The notes under the pieces are model-generated. The model was not told the DNA's origin. It did not search any database and saw only the letters and a list, made by a program, of their open reading frames with translations. 64,000 nt of DNA from Hamadaea tsunoensis DSM 44101 (GTDB taxonomy: Bacteria; Actinomycetota; Actinomycetes; Mycobacteriales; Micromonosporaceae), in the NCBI RefSeq assembly GCF_000428945.1, contig NZ_AUAX01000019.1:1-64000 (forward strand), written 5' to 3'. Shown one piece after another: positions 2,741 through 61,515 of the stretch (positions are counted from its first letter, which is position 1; every line of letters starts with the position of its first letter). Both the position numbers and the translations under genes were made by a program.

Positions 2741-2763
2741 TCTCAAAATCAAGATCAAATTCA

Positions 2764-2890
2764 TGTCCCGGGTTCGTCGATCTCACCTCCGCTCCTCGCG
2801 CGGGAGACCGGTCGGTCCCGTCACATGACGTGACGGGGCCTCCCTGCCAGCTGAGTGGGGCGACGCATCGTTCGCCGTCGTTCACTCCCG
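2764..2890 (-). repeat. Intergenic repeat block A, copy 1
   Basis: About 127 bases recur at 12414-12550, 40583-40719 and 50650-50783. The best conserved part contains GATCTCACCTCCGCTCCT and CGCGGGAGACC, followed by CAGSTGAGTGGGGCGA. This copy reads in the opposite sense to the copies at 40583 and 50650. It begins 24 bases after the dioxygenase stop. Its ORFs are not conserved between copies, so it is treated as non-coding. Confidence 0.7.
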
Positions 2891-2945
2891 CCCTTGTCTC
2901 GGCCGCATCCGCAAGATCAGGGATTGTTGCTTGATCATGTTGCGT

Positions 2946-3158: not shown

Positions 3159-3239
3159 CAAGATCTGGTGTGGATCAGGGATCGCCACGTAATCATGGGC
3201 CATGATTCGGGTGTTTTCCCTGATCCAAGCGGGATCTTG
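3159..3239. repeat. Long-stem hairpin repeat C, copy 1 (degenerate left arm)
   Basis: The right half (CCCTGATCCAAGCGGGATC) matches the other C copies closely, while the left arm has diverged. The core GGGCCATGATTCGGGTG is kept. It sits between the convergent dioxygenase and kinase genes, 21 bases from the kinase stop, a position that suits a bidirectional terminator. Confidence 0.65.
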
Positions 3240-3259
3240 AGGTGGGGCGAGGGGTGGGG

Positions 3260-3865: not shown

Positions 3866-4921
3866 TTATTCAGCGACGGGCGCGGCCGACAGCCCGGAGC
3901 AGCCGACGACCCGGCGACGCTCGGCCAGGATGCGTTGCGCCGCCGCTCCCGAGACGGCCGCCGGTACGCCGGTCGTCCGGTCGATGTACGCGGGCGTCAC
4001 GGTTCCCGAGATGATCCGTCCGGACCGGATGGTCAACGTGAGCACCTCGGTGTCGTTGGTCGCCGCGTCGTTGCGCCACCAGACGAAGTTGCTCAGGCCG
4101 TAGTGCACGTACGTGTGGCGCAGCCAGCCGTCGCCGAGCAGGACGTGGGCGTGCGTACCGACGAGGGCGTCGGCTCCGGCGTCGGACAGGCGGCGGGCCA
4201 GGTCGCGCTGCTCGGCCGACGGGCACTCCTGGTACTCGGTTCCCCAGTGCAGGTACACGATGACCACATCGGCCCGCTTCTTGGCGGCGCGTACGGCGGC
4301 CACCGCCCGGTCCGTATCCCGCGCCATCGCGAGTCCCGACCGCGTGTCGGTCGCGCGCCACGCCTGCCAGAGCTCGCTCACCTGGCTCATCCCGAGGACG
4401 GCTATCCGCGTACCCCGGATGGTGAAGATCTGCGGCGCGAAGGCGGCGCCGGCGGTCGGGCCCGCACCCACGACGGGCATCCTGGCCTGGGCCGCGGCGG
4501 CGAGAGTGTCGGTGAGGCCGGCCCGGCCGTAGTCGAGCGCGTGGTTGTTGGCGATGGTGGTGACGTCGATGCCCGCGGCCTTCAGGGCCGCGAAGGCCCC
4601 GGCCGGCGCGCGGAAGTGGAACTGCTTGGGCTCGGGGGTCCCGCCGCTGGTCACCGCGGTCTCAAGATTGACCATCGCGAGGTCCGCGCCACCCATCAGC
4701 GCCGTCACACCCGGCATTCCCTGATCCAGTACGCCTGACGTGCGATCGGTGAAATGCACGTCCCCCGCGAACGCGACAGTGATCGGGCGGGCGGGCGACG
4801 GCGTGGCGGGTGCCGTCGGCGCGCCGGTCGGGGCCGCCGCCCGCGCCGTGCAGCCGGCCAGGGCGGCGGCCAGGAGGACGGCGACGAGCGAGGGCGCGAG
4901 GAGGCGGCGGTTTCCCGGCAT
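3866..4921 (-). CDS. CapA-family lipoprotein, second copy
   Basis: This 351-residue lipoprotein (lipobox LAGC, Cys24) is a paralogue of the protein at 721-1833. It shares VAFAGDVHFTD, NLETAVTSGGTPEPKQFHF, IANNHALDYGRAGL, YLHWGTE and GTHAHVLLGDGW. The ATG at 4921 is chosen because it places a standard lipoprotein signal at the N-terminus; the open frame runs on upstream only by chance. It is divergent from the TetR gene at 4979 with just 57 bases between, so the regulator may control it. The natural substrate is unknown. Confidence 0.85.
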   Translation of the reverse strand: MPGNRRLLAPSLVAVLLAAALAGCTARAAAPTGAPTAPATPSPARPITVAFAGDVHFTDRTSGVLDQGMPGVTALMGGADLAMVNLETAVTSGGTPEPKQFHFRAPAGAFAALKAAGIDVTTIANNHALDYGRAGLTDTLAAAAQARMPVVGAGPTAGAAFAPQIFTIRGTRIAVLGMSQVSELWQAWRATDTRSGLAMARDTDRAVAAVRAAKKRADVVIVYLHWGTEYQECPSAEQRDLARRLSDAGADALVGTHAHVLLGDGWLRHTYVHYGLSNFVWWRNDAATNDTEVLTLTIRSGRIISGTVTPAYIDRTTGVPAAVSGAAAQRILAERRRVVGCSGLSAAPVAE

Positions 4922-6545: not shown

Positions 6546-6716
6546 GTCGTCCTGTAGGGGGAGGTCGGGGTGCCGGCCGGGTCGGTGATCGTCAGCGGGT
6601 GGGATGTAGTTTTCGGGCCTGGTCCCTCGATCGTTTGCGGCTGGGATGTCGGTAGGGGCCGGTTTTCTACATCTGGGGCGCTTTGGATCTTGGGTGCGGG
6701 CTGGATTTCTACAGCT

Positions 6717-6786
6717 CAGCCGCTGTGGATCACGTCCAGGCCGTTCCGTGGCCGCCAGTCGTCCGCGATGCGGGAAGGATCTTCCG
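6717..6786 (+). repeat. Intergenic repeat block Q, copy 1
   Basis: About 70 bases starting CAGCCGCTGTGGATCACGTC and ending GATGCGGGAAGGATCTTCCG recur at 12951-13020 (opposite strand) and 40286-40342. In each case block P follows in the same relative position. No conserved reading frame is seen. Confidence 0.65.
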
Positions 6787-6813
6787 CCAGCTGGACCGCG
6801 GTCGCTGTTTTCT

Positions 6814-6960
6814 TGATCGTTTGCGGGTGAAGTGTCATTTCGAGCCCACATTGCATGATCGTTTACGCGTCTGGTGCGACCAGGGGCCGTCTACGCACCC
6901 CGGAACCGTAAATGATCATGCAGGCGTCGGCCGTTTTCACACCTCACCCGTAAACGATCG
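6814..6960 (+). repeat. Palindromic repeat block P, copy 1
   Basis: The left arm starts TTGATCGTTTGCGGGTGAAG and contains TGCATGATCGTTTACG. The right arm is its imperfect reverse complement, with AAATGATCATGCA and ACCTCACCCGTAAACGATCG. The arms are about 50 bases, the core about 40. Copies occur at 12778-12923, 40371-40516 and 50444-50588. It could fold as a cruciform or long RNA hairpin. Confidence 0.75.
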
Positions 6961-7106
6961 CCCCTCTGGCGGGCAGACGGACGCCCACTGGGTTGCCGAG
7001 CCGGCGACTGTGATCAACGCGCTGATCATGAGGCGAGTGGTGACCATCTTCGCCTTCGCTCACTGGGTGATCGAATGCGTCTGAGCAGTGAATCCGGGGA
7101 TCTTTG

Positions 7107-7172
7107 CTTGATCAAATGCGGCCGAGAAGCGGCTGGGTGGCCATGCGCGCATCAGGGCCGCATTCGATCAAG
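7107..7172. repeat. Inverted repeat, 17-bp arms
   Basis: The arms CTTGATCAAATGCGGCC (7107-7123) and GGCCGCATTCGATCAAG (7156-7172) are complementary with one mismatch, around a 32-base GC-rich loop. It lies just before the 17-base tandem array. Confidence 0.6.
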
Positions 7173-7205
7173 GCGTCGCGGCGCTTTCGACATCCCAACC
7201 GCTTT

Positions 7206-7359
7206 CGATCACGCCGAGCCGCCGATCACACCGAGCCGCCGATCACGCCGAGCCGCCGATCACACCGAGCCGCCGATCACACCGAGCCGCCGATCACACC
7301 GAGCCGACGGGCACACCCGAGCCGGCGATCACACCGAGGCGCTGATCATGCCGAGCAGC
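7206..7359. repeat. Tandem array of nine 17-base units
   Basis: The unit CGATCACACCGAGCCGC is repeated nine times; six units are near-identical and the last three drift, one being 18 bases long. There are no spacers, so it is not a CRISPR array. A 17-base unit is not a multiple of three. The array lies 79 bases beyond the stop of the DUF2637-type gene. The half motif CGATCA recurs in neighbouring repeats. Iterons, a protein-binding array or a structural array are all possible. Confidence 0.8.
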
Positions 7360-12345: not shown

Positions 12346-12413
12346 GGCGGGTCTATTCCCGCTTTCCGAGATCCTCAAAATCAGGATCCAATGCAAGATC
12401 TTTAAGATCTTTT

Positions 12414-12550
12414 TGTCCCGGGTCCGTCGATCTCACCTCCGCTCCTCACGCGGGAGACCGTTCCGGCCCCTCCGCTGCGCTCCGAGGCCTCCACTGCCAG
12501 GTGAGTGGGGCGAGCATCCATCGCCGCCGTTCGGTCACCGTTTCACCCTG
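12414..12550 (-). repeat. Intergenic repeat block A, copy 2
   Basis: It matches the A copy at 2764-2890 and, reversed, those at 40583 and 50650. Here A, B, P and Q occur together in the reversed order over 12414-13063. It lies upstream of the YpfJ-type gene. An AAGATCTTTAAGATCTTTTT segment just before it (about 12395-12414) adds a small palindrome. Confidence 0.7.
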
Positions 12551-12575
12551 ACCCTGGTTCGCTGCCACCTCCTGC

Positions 12576-12594
12576 CTTTGTCGCGACTGTCCGA
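12576..12594 (-). repeat. Block B motif
   Basis: The reverse strand reads TCGGACAGTCGCGACAAAG. Six copies of this motif (consensus ATCGGACAGTCGSGACAAAG) occur in the window, all in gene-free repeat clusters. The others are at 12730, 13040, 40201, 40550 and 50614. Confidence 0.7.
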
Positions 12595-12619
12595 CTTGTG
12601 CCCAGCTGCTCTCGCTGCT

Positions 12620-12696
12620 CTCGACGATCTTGCGCGAATGTCCCAAATCCGCGGCATATGCCCGGAATGCCAGTACATTCGCGCAAGATCGTCGAG
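12620..12696. repeat. Perfect 22-bp inverted repeat with 33-base loop
   Basis: The arms 12620-12641 and 12675-12696 are exact reverse complements (starting CTCGACGATCTTGCGCGAAT). The loop holds a smaller palindrome GGCATATGCC. It is inserted between two B motifs of the repeat cluster. Such perfect symmetry suggests recent origin or selection. Confidence 0.8.
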
Positions 12697-12729
12697 AAGG
12701 GGGGCGTCGGCCAGCCTCGGCGTGCTGGG

Positions 12730-12753
12730 CTTTGTCGTGACTGTCCGATATGG
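12730..12753 (-). repeat. Block B motif
   Basis: The reverse strand reads CCATATCGGACAGTCACGAC then AAAG. It lies 24 bases from the left arm of P copy 2 and keeps the P-B order in reverse. Confidence 0.7.
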
Positions 12754-12777
12754 ATGTCCGGTCAGTCGCCGGCGGGG

Positions 12778-12923
12778 TGATCGTTTGCGGCTCAGGTGTG
12801 AATGTGGCCGCCGACTGCATGATCGATTGCGGTTTTGGAGCACGCTGACCGCCTCTGGCTACACCTGATCCGTAAACGATCATGCAGATCGAGCCGGAAT
12901 TACGCCTCAGCCGTAAATGATCA
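12778..12923 (-). repeat. Palindromic repeat block P, copy 2
   Basis: The left arm begins TGATCGTTTGCGGCTCAGGT and the right arm ends CTCAGCCGTAAATGATCA. Inner arms are GACTGCATGATCGATTGCGG and CCGTAAACGATCATGCAGATC. The core, read on the minus strand, contains CAGGTGTAGCCAGAGGCGGTC, close to the core of the copy at 40371. Confidence 0.75.
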
Positions 12924-12950
12924 AGGAATCGGCGGCGCCGGCCCACCGGC

Positions 12951-13063
12951 CGGAAGATCATTCCCGCATCACGGGAGCTGGCCGGGGACCGAACGGGTTG
13001 GACATGATCCACAGCGGCCGAGATGTCACAACTCGAACCCTGTATCGGACAGTCGGGACAAAG
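12951..13063 (-). repeat. Block Q copy 2 followed by a B motif
   Basis: The segment 12951-13020 is the reverse complement of the Q block at 6717-6786 with moderate divergence. A further B motif (ATCGGACAGTCGGGACAAAG) follows at 13040-13063. Together with P, B and A it completes the composite element of this gene-free stretch (12346-13120), in which I see no gene. Confidence 0.65.
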
Positions 13064-17100: not shown

Positions 17101-17181
17101 CAAGATCCCGCTTGGATCACGGTTTTCACCCGAATCTTGGGCCATGATTCGGGTGATTTCCCTGATCCAAACGGGATCTTG
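17101..17181. repeat. Long-stem hairpin repeat C, copy 2
   Basis: The arms CAAGATCCCGCTTGGATCAC.. and ..CCTGATCCAAACGGGATCTTG pair over more than 30 bases with few mismatches, with a core AATCTTGGGCCATGATT. It lies between the convergent MFS and SixA genes. Four rough repeats of GTCTTGGGGCGCCGGG follow to about 17236. Confidence 0.75.
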
Positions 17182-17235
17182 GGGCGCCGGGTCTTGGGGC
17201 GCGGGGGTCTTGGGACGCCGGGGTCTTGGGGCGGG

Positions 17236-40200: not shown

Positions 40201-40719
40201 CATATCGGACAGTCGCGACAAAGCCAGGCGGAATATGGGCCGCGCTCGGCGGCAGGGGTGCTTTCCTCGCAGGTCGGTCGCGTTCGATCATGTCCTGCCC
40301 GTGCGGCCGCGACGTCCTGCCGCGATGCGGGAACGATCTTCCATTTCGCAAGATGCTGCTGTTGATTTCGTGATCATTTACGGCTGAGGTGTGTTTTCAA
40401 GCCCTCCCCGCATGATTGTTTACGCGTCAGGTGTAGCCAGGGGCGGTCAGCGTGCTCCGGAGCCGTAATTGATCATGCATCGAGTGGCTGTTTTACACCT
40501 GGGCCGTAAACGATCACCCGCGCCGACTAGCCGACTGGCGTCACGCCTCCATATCGGACAGTCGCGACAACGCCAGAGGCGAAGGGTGAAGCGGTGACCG
40601 AACCGCGGTGAAGGATGCTTCGCCCCACTCACCTGGCAGTGGAGGCCTCGGAGCGAAGCGGAGGGGTCGGAACGGTCTCCCGCGCGAGGAGCGGAGGTGA
40701 GATCGACGAACCCGGGACG
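40201..40719 (+). repeat. Composite intergenic repeat B-Q-P-B-A
   Basis: The whole gap after katG is built from repeat blocks in order: B (40201-40222), Q (40286-40342), P palindrome (40371-40516), B (40550-40570) and A (40583-40719). The P arms are GTGATCATTTACGGCTGAGG and, reversed, GTGATCGTTTACGGCCCAGG. Block A ends ten bases from the stop of the hydrolase gene. I see no gene in it. Confidence 0.78.
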
Positions 40720-40728
40720 AAATGCCTT

Positions 40729-41571
40729 TCAAGATTGTTTCTCGGCCAGGGCGGCGATGCGGCCGATGATGTCCGGCCACAGTTCCTCGGGCAGGTTGTG
40801 CCCCATCCCCGGGTGCGCGACGTACGCCGCCCCCGGGATCTGCCGGGCGGTGTCGTGGCCGGCCGCGACGCGGACCAGGGGATCTTCGGCGCCGTGGAAG
40901 ACGAAGGCCGGGCAGGTGATCGTCGACAACGCGGGTACGCGGAGTCTGCGCATCGCGGTCGTCTGGCGTTGCGTGGTCAGCGGGTCGCGCGGGTGGCGGT
41001 CGTAGCTGACCCCGGCGGCCTCGCGGGCCCAGGTCTCGGGGAACCGGTAGCCGGGCGAGCCGACGGCACGGTAGACCGCGACGATGTTGTCGATCTCCTG
41101 CTCGCGGGTCTTGGCCTGGGGGAGGCGGGCGAGCTTGGCGATGGTGCCGAGCCGGACGTAGCGGATCATCGACAGCAGGCCGGCGGTGACGGGCGCGCCC
41201 ATGCCGGAGGTCATCGTGCGGACGCGTTCGGGGTGCAGGAGGGTCAGCGCCTGGGCGAGGCCGGCCCCCATGGACGCGCCGAAGACGTGGGCGCTGCGCC
41301 AGCCGACCGCGTCCATGACCGCGAGCGCGTCGTCGACCATGTCCTGGCCGGTGTACTTGTCGCCACGGGCGAAATGGGTCGACAGGCCGGTGTCGCGGTT
41401 GTCGAAGCGGACGACGGCGAAGCCGCGGTCGACGAACTGTCGGCAGAAGGCGTCCGGCCACCAGTTCATCTGGAAGTCCAGGCCCATGATCATGAGCAGC
41501 GGTACGCCCCGCGCGGGGTCGCCCAGCACCTCGTAGGCGATCTTCACGTCCTTGTTGCGGGCGTACTCCAC
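40729..41571 (-). CDS. Alpha/beta hydrolase
   Basis: The 280-residue protein has the fold's marks: VPLLMIMGLDFQMNWW (oxyanion region), nucleophile elbow FGASMGAGLAQ (Ser near residue 99), FVFHGAEDPLVRV (acid) and HPGMGHNLPEE (catalytic His). It resembles DhaA- or esterase-like cytosolic hydrolases. The substrate is unknown. GTG at 41571 has an AGGACG-like site. It is divergent from a TetR gene with two matching sites between, so that regulator very likely controls it. Confidence 0.88.
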   Translation of the reverse strand: MEYARNKDVKIAYEVLGDPARGVPLLMIMGLDFQMNWWPDAFCRQFVDRGFAVVRFDNRDTGLSTHFARGDKYTGQDMVDDALAVMDAVGWRSAHVFGASMGAGLAQALTLLHPERVRTMTSGMGAPVTAGLLSMIRYVRLGTIAKLARLPQAKTREQEIDNIVAVYRAVGSPGYRFPETWAREAAGVSYDRHPRDPLTTQRQTTAMRRLRVPALSTITCPAFVFHGAEDPLVRVAAGHDTARQIPGAAYVAHPGMGHNLPEELWPDIIGRIAALAEKQS

Positions 41572-44575: not shown

Positions 44576-44596
44576 TTCAGCTGGTAGACCGGCCCG

Positions 44597-44675
44597 TTGA
44601 TCCCGTTTGGATCAGGTATTTCACCCGAATCTTGGGCCATGATCCGGGTGAAATACCTGATCCAAACGGGATCAA
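44597..44675. repeat. Long-stem hairpin repeat C, copy 3: perfect 31-bp stem
   Basis: The arms 44597-44627 and 44645-44675 are exact reverse complements (starting TTGATCCCGTTTGGATCAGG) around a 17-base loop that contains CTTGGGCCATGATC. It lies 61 bases after the sulfatase stop and just upstream of a hypothetical gene on the same strand. Confidence 0.85.
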
Positions 44676-44735
44676 GGGACGGGGGCCAGGGGACGGGATC
44701 AAGGGCCGGGGGTCAGGGGCCGCGGAGTGGGCGGG

Positions 44736-50364: not shown

Positions 50365-50443
50365 GCGTCGAGCATGAACCTTCCCCCAGGGACAGGGTCA
50401 ACTCGCCTCGACCTCGTCGGCTGGGCAGAGGTCGTCGATTTGC

Positions 50444-50783
50444 TGATCGTTTGCGGCTGAGGTGTAAATCCGACCCGATCTGCATGATCGTTTACGTCTC
50501 CGGAGCGCGTTGACCGGCCTTTGCGACACCAGGCGCGTAATTGATCATGCAGATCGGCCCGGATTTGACACCCCAGCCGCAAATGATCGCCCACCCGCCG
50601 ATCCAGTCAGCCCCATATCGGACAGTCGGGACAAAAGCTGGAGTGCAGGGATGAGACGGTGACCGGGGGGCGGTGAAGGATGCGTCGCCCACTCACCTGG
50701 CAGTGGAGTCCCCGGAGCGCAGCGACAGGGCGGAACGGTCTCCCGCGTGAGGAGCGGAGGTGAGATCGGCGAACCCGGCACAA
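50444..50783 (+). repeat. Composite intergenic repeat P-B-A
   Basis: Block P (50444-50588) has the best preserved arms of the four copies: the left arm starts TGATCGTTTGCGGCTGAGGT, and the right arm reads back as GATCATTTGCGGCTGGGGT. The core is reversed relative to the copy at 40371. Then come B (50614-50635) and A (50650-50783). Block Q is absent. No gene is seen. Confidence 0.78.
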
Positions 50784-50807
50784 AAGATCTTGACCGTGAG
50801 TCGATGC

Positions 50808-50848
50808 CCAAGATTCGGGTGTTTTCCCTGATCCAAGCCGGATCTTGG
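50808..50848. repeat. Long-stem hairpin repeat C, half copy
   Basis: Only the right half is present: AAGATTCGGGTGTTTTCCCT and GATCCAAGCCGGATCTTGG. It cannot form the full stem. It abuts block A and lies about 100 bases before the ricin-domain gene. Confidence 0.7.
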
Positions 50849-50952
50849 GGGCGGGGAGGACTTTCTTCAAGCCTTGTATTGACTTACGTACTATCAGCAG
50901 AATAGCGTGCGGTCGATCTGTTACTTAACTTTCCTGTCAGGGAGGTTGACCC

Positions 50953-61374: not shown

Positions 61375-61455
61375 CAAGATCGCGTTTGGATCAGGGAAAT
61401 CACCCGAATCTTGGTCCATGATTCGGGTGAAAAACCTGATCCAAGCGGGATCTTG
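61375..61455. repeat. Long-stem hairpin repeat C, copy 4
   Basis: The arms start CAAGATCGCGTTTGGATCAG and end CCTGATCCAAGCGGGATCTTG, with a core CACCCGAATCTTGGTCCATG then ATTCGGGTG. Stem identity is high with a few mismatches. It lies between the convergent beta-mannosidase and DUF3291 genes. A C-rich stretch precedes it (61321-61370). Confidence 0.78.
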
Positions 61456-61515
61456 GGGGCCGCGCGGCAGCGCGGCGGGGCGGGCGCGTCACGGCGGCGC
61501 GGCCCCGGGGGTGGG

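Follow-up and report, generated by a model that had tools for sequence, protein, structure and literature searches.

Hamadaea tsunoensis belongs to the Micromonosporaceae, a family known for antibiotic producers. The window analysed here, a stretch of 64,000 nucleotides of its genome, carries short repeated blocks designated Q, P, B and A, which the initial annotation had read as one modular dispersed element lying on both strands at five sites. We searched the window with a covariance model of the A module (A CM; built from 97 own-genome copies, including three window copies and excluding the one at 12411), a P/Q profile of 37 units that all came from outside the window, and a scan for B cores. 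The element was present at all five sites (Table 1), with the block order kept, and reversed at 12414-13063, as had been claimed. The main P/Q profile matches lay at 12723-13035, 40651-40267, 6987-6685 and 50715-50415 (E 1e-91 to 1.6e-62), besides weaker second-strand and neighbouring matches, and the profile matched nothing in 10 Markov-shuffled windows. The A CM gave four strong matches and a fifth and last one at E 0.064.

Table 1. Positions of the element's modules, and of one accompanying palindrome, in the window
Feature	Position	Strand	Evidence or remark
AT-rich tail of A module	2741..2764	-	starts right after TAG 2738-2740 closing + strand ORF 1397-2740
A module standing alone, with k part, GTCACGTCATGTGAC-type hairpin, A core and initial tail bases	2761..2899	-	A CM E 3.5e-33
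Q-P unit, no B or A	6685..6987	+	P/Q profile E 3e-80
A module, reversed, left end of focal element; core edge 12415	12411..12548	-	A CM E 2.9e-39
B block adjoining A module	12576..12599	-	
Palindrome, apparently separate; 23-nt arms 12619-12641 and 12675-12697	12619..12697	.	
Extra B block	12730..12753	-	
P: rigid nested palindrome, four TGATCGTTTACG-like motifs (>> <<)	12763..12936	-	P/Q profile
Q block	12937..13035	-	P/Q profile; consensus
B core, opposite orientation, outer end of focal element	13044..13061	+	B-core scan
Leading B core	40204..40221	+	B-core scan
Q-P unit	40246..40524	+	P/Q profile E 7.6e-87
B core	40553..40570	+	B-core scan
A module	40584..40722	+	A CM E 1.3e-40
P unit	50415..50610	+	P/Q profile
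B core	50617..50634	+	B-core scan
A module with AAAAGATCTTGA tail	50649..50785	+	A CM E 1.2e-34

The site at 2764 had been listed as A alone; A is there, together with its k-hairpin part, and the ORF that ends beside it was missed by our own codon-usage gene script. At the focal site the AT-rich tail lies on the left, toward the start of a zinc-peptidase gene (ATG ending 12345). The 22-bp palindrome noted within this site is present with somewhat longer arms, and it looks like a separate dispersed palindrome because it is seen again past the tail of another copy (L069). The short tail of the third A module runs into the stop codon (40729-40731) of a convergent alpha/beta-hydrolase gene, and half of another palindrome comes after the fourth A module.

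No transposase or conserved frame had been seen, and none was found; the suggested MITE-, REP- or RNA-like kind was apt. A Pfam search of six ORFs overlying three of the window sites gave a single match with E <0.1, below its cut-off. Rfam reported five tRNAs only in the whole window, and across 12 loci, at E up to 0.5, its sole match was p27_CRE, below its gathering score.

Genome-wide architecture

In a pattern scan of the H. tsunoensis genome (9.48 Mb, 68 contigs) that allowed up to two mismatches, we counted 221 A cores and 328 B cores, about equally divided between the strands; reversed-pattern controls for both cores gave 0. The block order was found again at sites far beyond the five in the window, in agreement with a single modular element. 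About 110 A copies, at about half of the 221 places, were read individually, and no gene was predicted between their paired A ends. In its fullest form the element is built as a symmetric inverted repeat, A'-k'-B'-p>p>-p<p<-B-k-A, that measures ~740 bp between outer A cores (for example L016, L019 and L027), in place of the ancestral Q-P-B-A element of about 500 bp that had been proposed. At its centre lies P, a nested palindrome of rigid geometry: in all 40 units found, its motifs are spaced 41-42, 50-51 and 41-42 nt apart. Truncated copies are numerous, down to a terminal A-k module of ~110-140 bp, and the A module is also found standing without P/Q. The description of the copies as eroding fits poorly: 340 kb of contig 8, taken whole, held 13 matches to the own-dialect A CM at 107-167 bits and one weak match at 39 bits, and the core is nearly constant.

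Module order is fixed around a variable internal part, as in the BOX repeats of pneumococcus, and the element is short, non-coding and present in many copies, as in a MITE, with its 221 A cores and no coding family over cut-off in the six ORFs. Decayed coding genes, for which the initial annotation had allowed, did not come true: decayed genes or chance repeats are extremely improbable given the empty reversed-pattern controls, the Pfam result and the single A copy of 14 that lies within a predicted gene in the contig 8 sample. The symmetric full-length copies, with inverted A at both ends, could point to a classic DDE-transposon MITE, in which terminal inverted repeats are accompanied by target duplications and A forms the terminus. 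However, single-A copies are many, and a presence/absence site in Asanoa (below) has one A and no recognised duplication; we regard this reading as very unlikely.

The elements look unevenly distributed across the genome. Contig 2 (565 kb) was without an exact A core, though size-neighbour contigs were listed with exact cores, and inexact A cores occurred in two of the five 20-kb stretches of it that we read.

The A module: core, hairpin and tail

The 97-copy alignment gave the layout of the A module as k part, hairpin, core CGGTCTCCCGCGNGAGGAGCGGAGGTGAGATCGACGAACCCGGGAC and tail. The core, of ~45 nt, is almost invariant, and 135-nt A units have a median pairwise identity of 86% (800 random pairs). 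Copies L031-L090 were fetched by exact A-core match, so that their core constancy is partly a matter of selection; L002-L030 supplied a less biased set of 37 copies, retrieved because they resembled the window element as a whole, and in these core conservation was nearly equal.

The hairpin varies from copy to copy, with 46 distinct segments that include GCGNAGC loops (all four N), GTCACGAAGTGAC and GGCCCCCAGGGCC. Among distinct segments of at least 14 nt, 17 of the 51 from H. tsunoensis and 26 of the 47 from other genomes folded at z <= -2 (medians -1.49 and -2.50), with 39 foreign rows yielding no segment under the script's rule. RNAalifold placed 24 pairs in the A module, 6 of them changed on both sides, and G.T pairs were common in own-genome stems; in L131, L168 and L228 the hairpin was almost absent. 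Foreign copies carried CCCG[AG]G downstream in 108 of 119 cases. The base Y of TC[Y]G, which precedes GCGGGAG, and the base R of CCCG[R]G formed a Watson-Crick match in all 107 foreign copies judged (C-G 66, T-A 41, T.G or C.A 0), a count in which related copies are not independent, the script permitted only A or G at R, 11 motif-less copies were not judged and one unrelated hit was left out. One congener copy had T with G at these positions.

A hairpin retained while its sequence changes, the frequent G.T pairs and the agreement between two distant core positions all favour the main rival to a mobile-element reading, namely that the A module works mainly as an RNA element at gene 3' ends (a bidirectional terminator, or a processing or stability structure) that is selected, its spread being secondary. 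Against it stand the three copies in which the hairpin is nearly absent, the lack of an Rfam match to the element in the window or at the 12 loci, and an edge with no obvious U-tract as judged by eye.

HDV-like ribozymes are characterised by P1/P2/P3 pairing, an L3 loop and a double pseudoknot. We considered and rejected such a ribozyme: the reverse strand of own copies has a UCCUCGC loop, but the P2-like pairing shows no covariation, and the 5' part that would be cleaved off is conserved (by eye, 97-copy alignment).

The tail is 82% AT over its first 5 nt and reaches background level by ~35 nt (111 copies). It consists mostly of GAWYTT hexamers, with 57 of 83 successive spacings exactly 6. 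The tail word occurred within 50 nt in 100/111 own tails versus 7/111 in a control stretch; corresponding counts were 24/66 for the Asanoa-type CCCGGG class (controls 6 and 6), 3/25 for the Asanoa-type CCCGAG class (controls 1 and 0) and 0/16 for Dactylosporangium-type copies. By these counts the tail is strong in H. tsunoensis and weak in Asanoa, and the Dactylosporangium-type copies that were read lack it. We also asked whether it could be a pre-existing insertion target. In 578,630 own bases, chosen largely around A, 83 of 131 tail-word occurrences adjoin A, and the tail is therefore more likely part of the element. A coding tail was likewise rejected: the first GATCTT shared a single phase in 71 of 95 tails, yet descent from a small number of ancestral tail types could account for this, and reading frames 0 and 2 were similarly open (47 and 54 of 111 open over 40 codons).

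Gene-end placement and orthologous sites

Genes were called on either side of 103 copies, by our own codon-usage script rather than a standard annotator. The outer A edge faced a gene 3' end in 73 of these, at a median of 31 nt from the stop codon and within 48 nt in 55 of the 73. The other 30 faced a gene start (median 93.5 nt). In the contig 8 sample, A was found in 6/52 convergent, 4/52 divergent and 1/184 tandem gaps (convergent gaps versus the rest, Fisher p 0.006), and convergent placement is thus enriched, not exclusive. In six short copies (L035, L037, L043, L047, L048 and L068) the element starts at or near the upstream stop codon, and the spacer is therefore almost wholly element. 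Linkage of A to a particular gene was rejected, since the 362 predicted proteins beside A included no recurrent neighbour (the largest cluster had 2 members), as expected for elements moved in trans.

We then compared orthologous sites. In 60 flank-matched comparisons of Asanoa and Dactylosporangium loci, the element was at the same place in 52 and not in 8, where the loci had been fetched as element carriers and several of the 8 are second alignments of the same pair. The core was better kept than its surroundings in these alignments, a pattern more suggestive of selection or gene conversion than of parasitic DNA that evolves neutrally, and in the L240/L243 pair the hairpin had been swapped for another type at the same site. 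Across a stretch that is syntenic in six Asanoa genomes and totals 458 kb, we placed 22 elements, many of which lacked a usable flank on one or both sides in the other genomes. One site was clean. Here the element lies within 125, 132 and 332 nt between convergent stop codons in G021, G136 and G134, while without the element these two genes have a 7-nt overlap in G132 and G133 and lie 16 nt apart in G135. The element at this site has a single A, the genomes differ in the final codons of the right-hand gene, and no target duplication was recognised. At a second site G132 alone of 4 genomes compared carries the element, with an unclear left border. From one clean empty site alone, gain and loss cannot be separated. 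The congener stretches that we fetched had no synteny useful for own-genome sites.

The facing of the outer edge toward gene 3' ends fits a selected 3'-end RNA role, but the 30 copies that face a gene start and the absence of the element at orthologous gene pairs of close relatives do not. Taken with the hairpin evidence above, we consider such a role, as the chief explanation of the A module, rather unlikely. Mobile and selected gene-end roles may both hold, for different copies.

Relatives, a candidate mobile family and accompanying repeats

The own-dialect A-core pattern was absent from three congeners, and 2 of 57 other relatives had one inexact match each; the own-dialect A CM likewise found no match in 270 kb of the three congeners or 60 kb of Asanoa. 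With the best 9 candidates per genome scored, distant A CM matches of the same architecture occurred in 9 of 354 family genomes, including H. tsunoensis itself; two of the matches (L121 and L123) look like chance. A derived pattern gave 14-36 copies in all six genomes of g19 (Asanoa; controls 0-1), 15, 14 and 6 in three of seven g59 genomes (the other four 0-2), 9 in G027 (controls 2 and 1) and, in most of the other 96 genomes with matches, counts at control level. From the shared dialect we infer that g59 is Dactylosporangium. The named matches are to four Asanoa species, two Dactylosporangium and one Virgisporangium, and single hits in five unrelated or undefined records (L166, L175, L180, L192 and L222) look like chance. 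The A module thus occurs in three other genera of the Micromonosporaceae with the same architecture in differing sequence versions, and congener copies are sparse. In the congener copies, a box of the GGCAG type and a hairpin are accompanied by CGGGAGCRRCGG and, mostly, GGACCTGGG.

Copy number is very unequal. With 113 candidates scored in each, a mixed model (R2) gave at least 113 matches in H. tsunoensis and 103 in Asanoa G021. The three congeners gave 2, 3 and 2 matches and G020 and G024 a single match each; R2 matched nothing in the remaining 33 of the 40 genomes. Inverted A pairs were found in H. tsunoensis, Asanoa G136 and congener G002. The P/Q query matched 60 of 354 family genomes, with short matches (25-47 nt) outside H. 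tsunoensis; at element length, with 2 candidates scored per genome, P/Q was found in this genome only. Judged by these searches, the A module appears to be the more widely spread part, and P/Q to be confined at element length to this genome. Plasmid and phage collections gave no match, and a search of viral contigs with a neighbouring gene found no relative. In Asanoa ishikariensis (L214:1908-2312) we observed a tandem of hairpin, A core and tail with an 81-bp period, and in L161 repeated A-tail pieces.

We think it probable that these copies form a family of non-autonomous small mobile elements of the Micromonosporaceae, BOX/REP-like and moved in trans by a putative enzyme. The moving unit would carry the A module, with its box TGGCAG, replaceable hairpin and ~45-nt core ending CCCGRG, and, in some lineages, an outer-edge tail that is rich in AT and built of GAWYTT. 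In folded form, the A end would be recognised by a trans-acting, transposase-like recombinase; folding would matter for movement, and insertions would persist chiefly between stop codons, the cheapest place. In the H. tsunoensis lineage, A-k-B ends may have come to flank a palindromic P/Q cassette, giving ~740-bp composites that presumably move as units and lose parts. SINE-like retroposition, suggested by variable inner ends and a simple-repeat tail, was rejected, as RVT_1 (PF00078) had 0 matches at E up to 0.001 in the genome. A broader version of the proposal is speculative and, in our view, doubtful: a family-wide new class of mobile 3'-end elements that need a folded single strand, in which a putative recombinase would read the core, the hairpin would be exchanged as a cassette and the AT hexamer tail added at insertion, seeding convergent spacers, some copies being kept as gene-end structures.

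By analogy, the element would work most like BOX of Streptococcus pneumoniae. In the excerpted text of PMC3049150, BOX consists of boxA, a variable boxB and boxC, spans 67-637 bp with predicted stem-loops, has terminal inverted repeats (TIRs) and target duplications, is over-represented between convergent genes, and is held to be non-autonomous and to have spread mainly in one burst. The two are alike, by description and not by sequence, in being modular and stem-loop forming, in their convergent-gene bias and in a lineage burst. They differ in that no TIRs or target duplications of the BOX sort were recognised here, and in that here one module is common to several genera in different sequence versions, its hairpin being exchangeable and an AT hexamer tail occurring in certain lineages. 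Pneumococcal SPRITE also lies near gene 3' ends, where it is suggested to have been co-opted as a terminator; however, the same excerpts describe it as AT-rich, with an 18-bp duplex followed by a uridine-rich tract, and mention no modules (PMC3049150).

High copy number, extragenic position near gene 3' ends, mosaics with palindromes and alternating orientation are shared with REP/BIME sequences and their RAYT transposases, as excerpted from PMC3733652 and PMC2817692. Yet the element fails on two defining points, the Y1 transposase and the tagged palindrome. Y1_Tnp (PF01797) had 0 matches at E up to 0.001 in the H. tsunoensis genome, while the same search was positive in 5 of 14 control genomes. 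By eye, no GTAG or CGTC tag, as defined in the excerpts of PMC3733652, ends the palindrome in the 97-copy alignment; CGTC is present internally on the reverse strand, not as a tagged terminus. The conserved ~45-nt unit with a hairpin also differs from REP's palindrome of 20-40 nt (PMC3733652, excerpted). Membership of a REP/RAYT system is accordingly highly improbable.

Within open-licence PMC text we found no report of such an element in the Micromonosporaceae, and it is apparently a small mobile element undescribed so far. If so, many intergenic spacers in some members of the family are largely made of it. The natural series of no spacer, spacer with element and composite would allow tests of how repeats create gene-end regions and of whether they become terminators, and because hairpins are swapped freely while the core stays fixed, the recognition rule can be tested directly.

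Other repeats were seen alongside the element. A second dispersed palindrome of ~84-94 bp (CAAGATCCCGCTTGGATCAGGG...CCTGATCCAAACGGGATCTTG) lies at 3159-3242, 17101-17184, 44596-44679 and 61375-61458 of the window, with the half copy at 50806-50855, and its motif occurs in 15 of 288 intergenic gaps of the contig 8 sample. A third, with GATCTTGACGGATG-like ends, was found in or near composites (L064, L077, L078, L085, L017, L018 and L008). Positions 7189-7359 hold a tandem array with a 17-bp unit, CGATCACACCGAGCCGC, and the adjoining 7056-7216 has a weak likeness to the P unit. Finally, 930-1547 and 4078-4695 are duplicated pieces, 3148 bp apart and 71-86% identical, perhaps paralogous genes.
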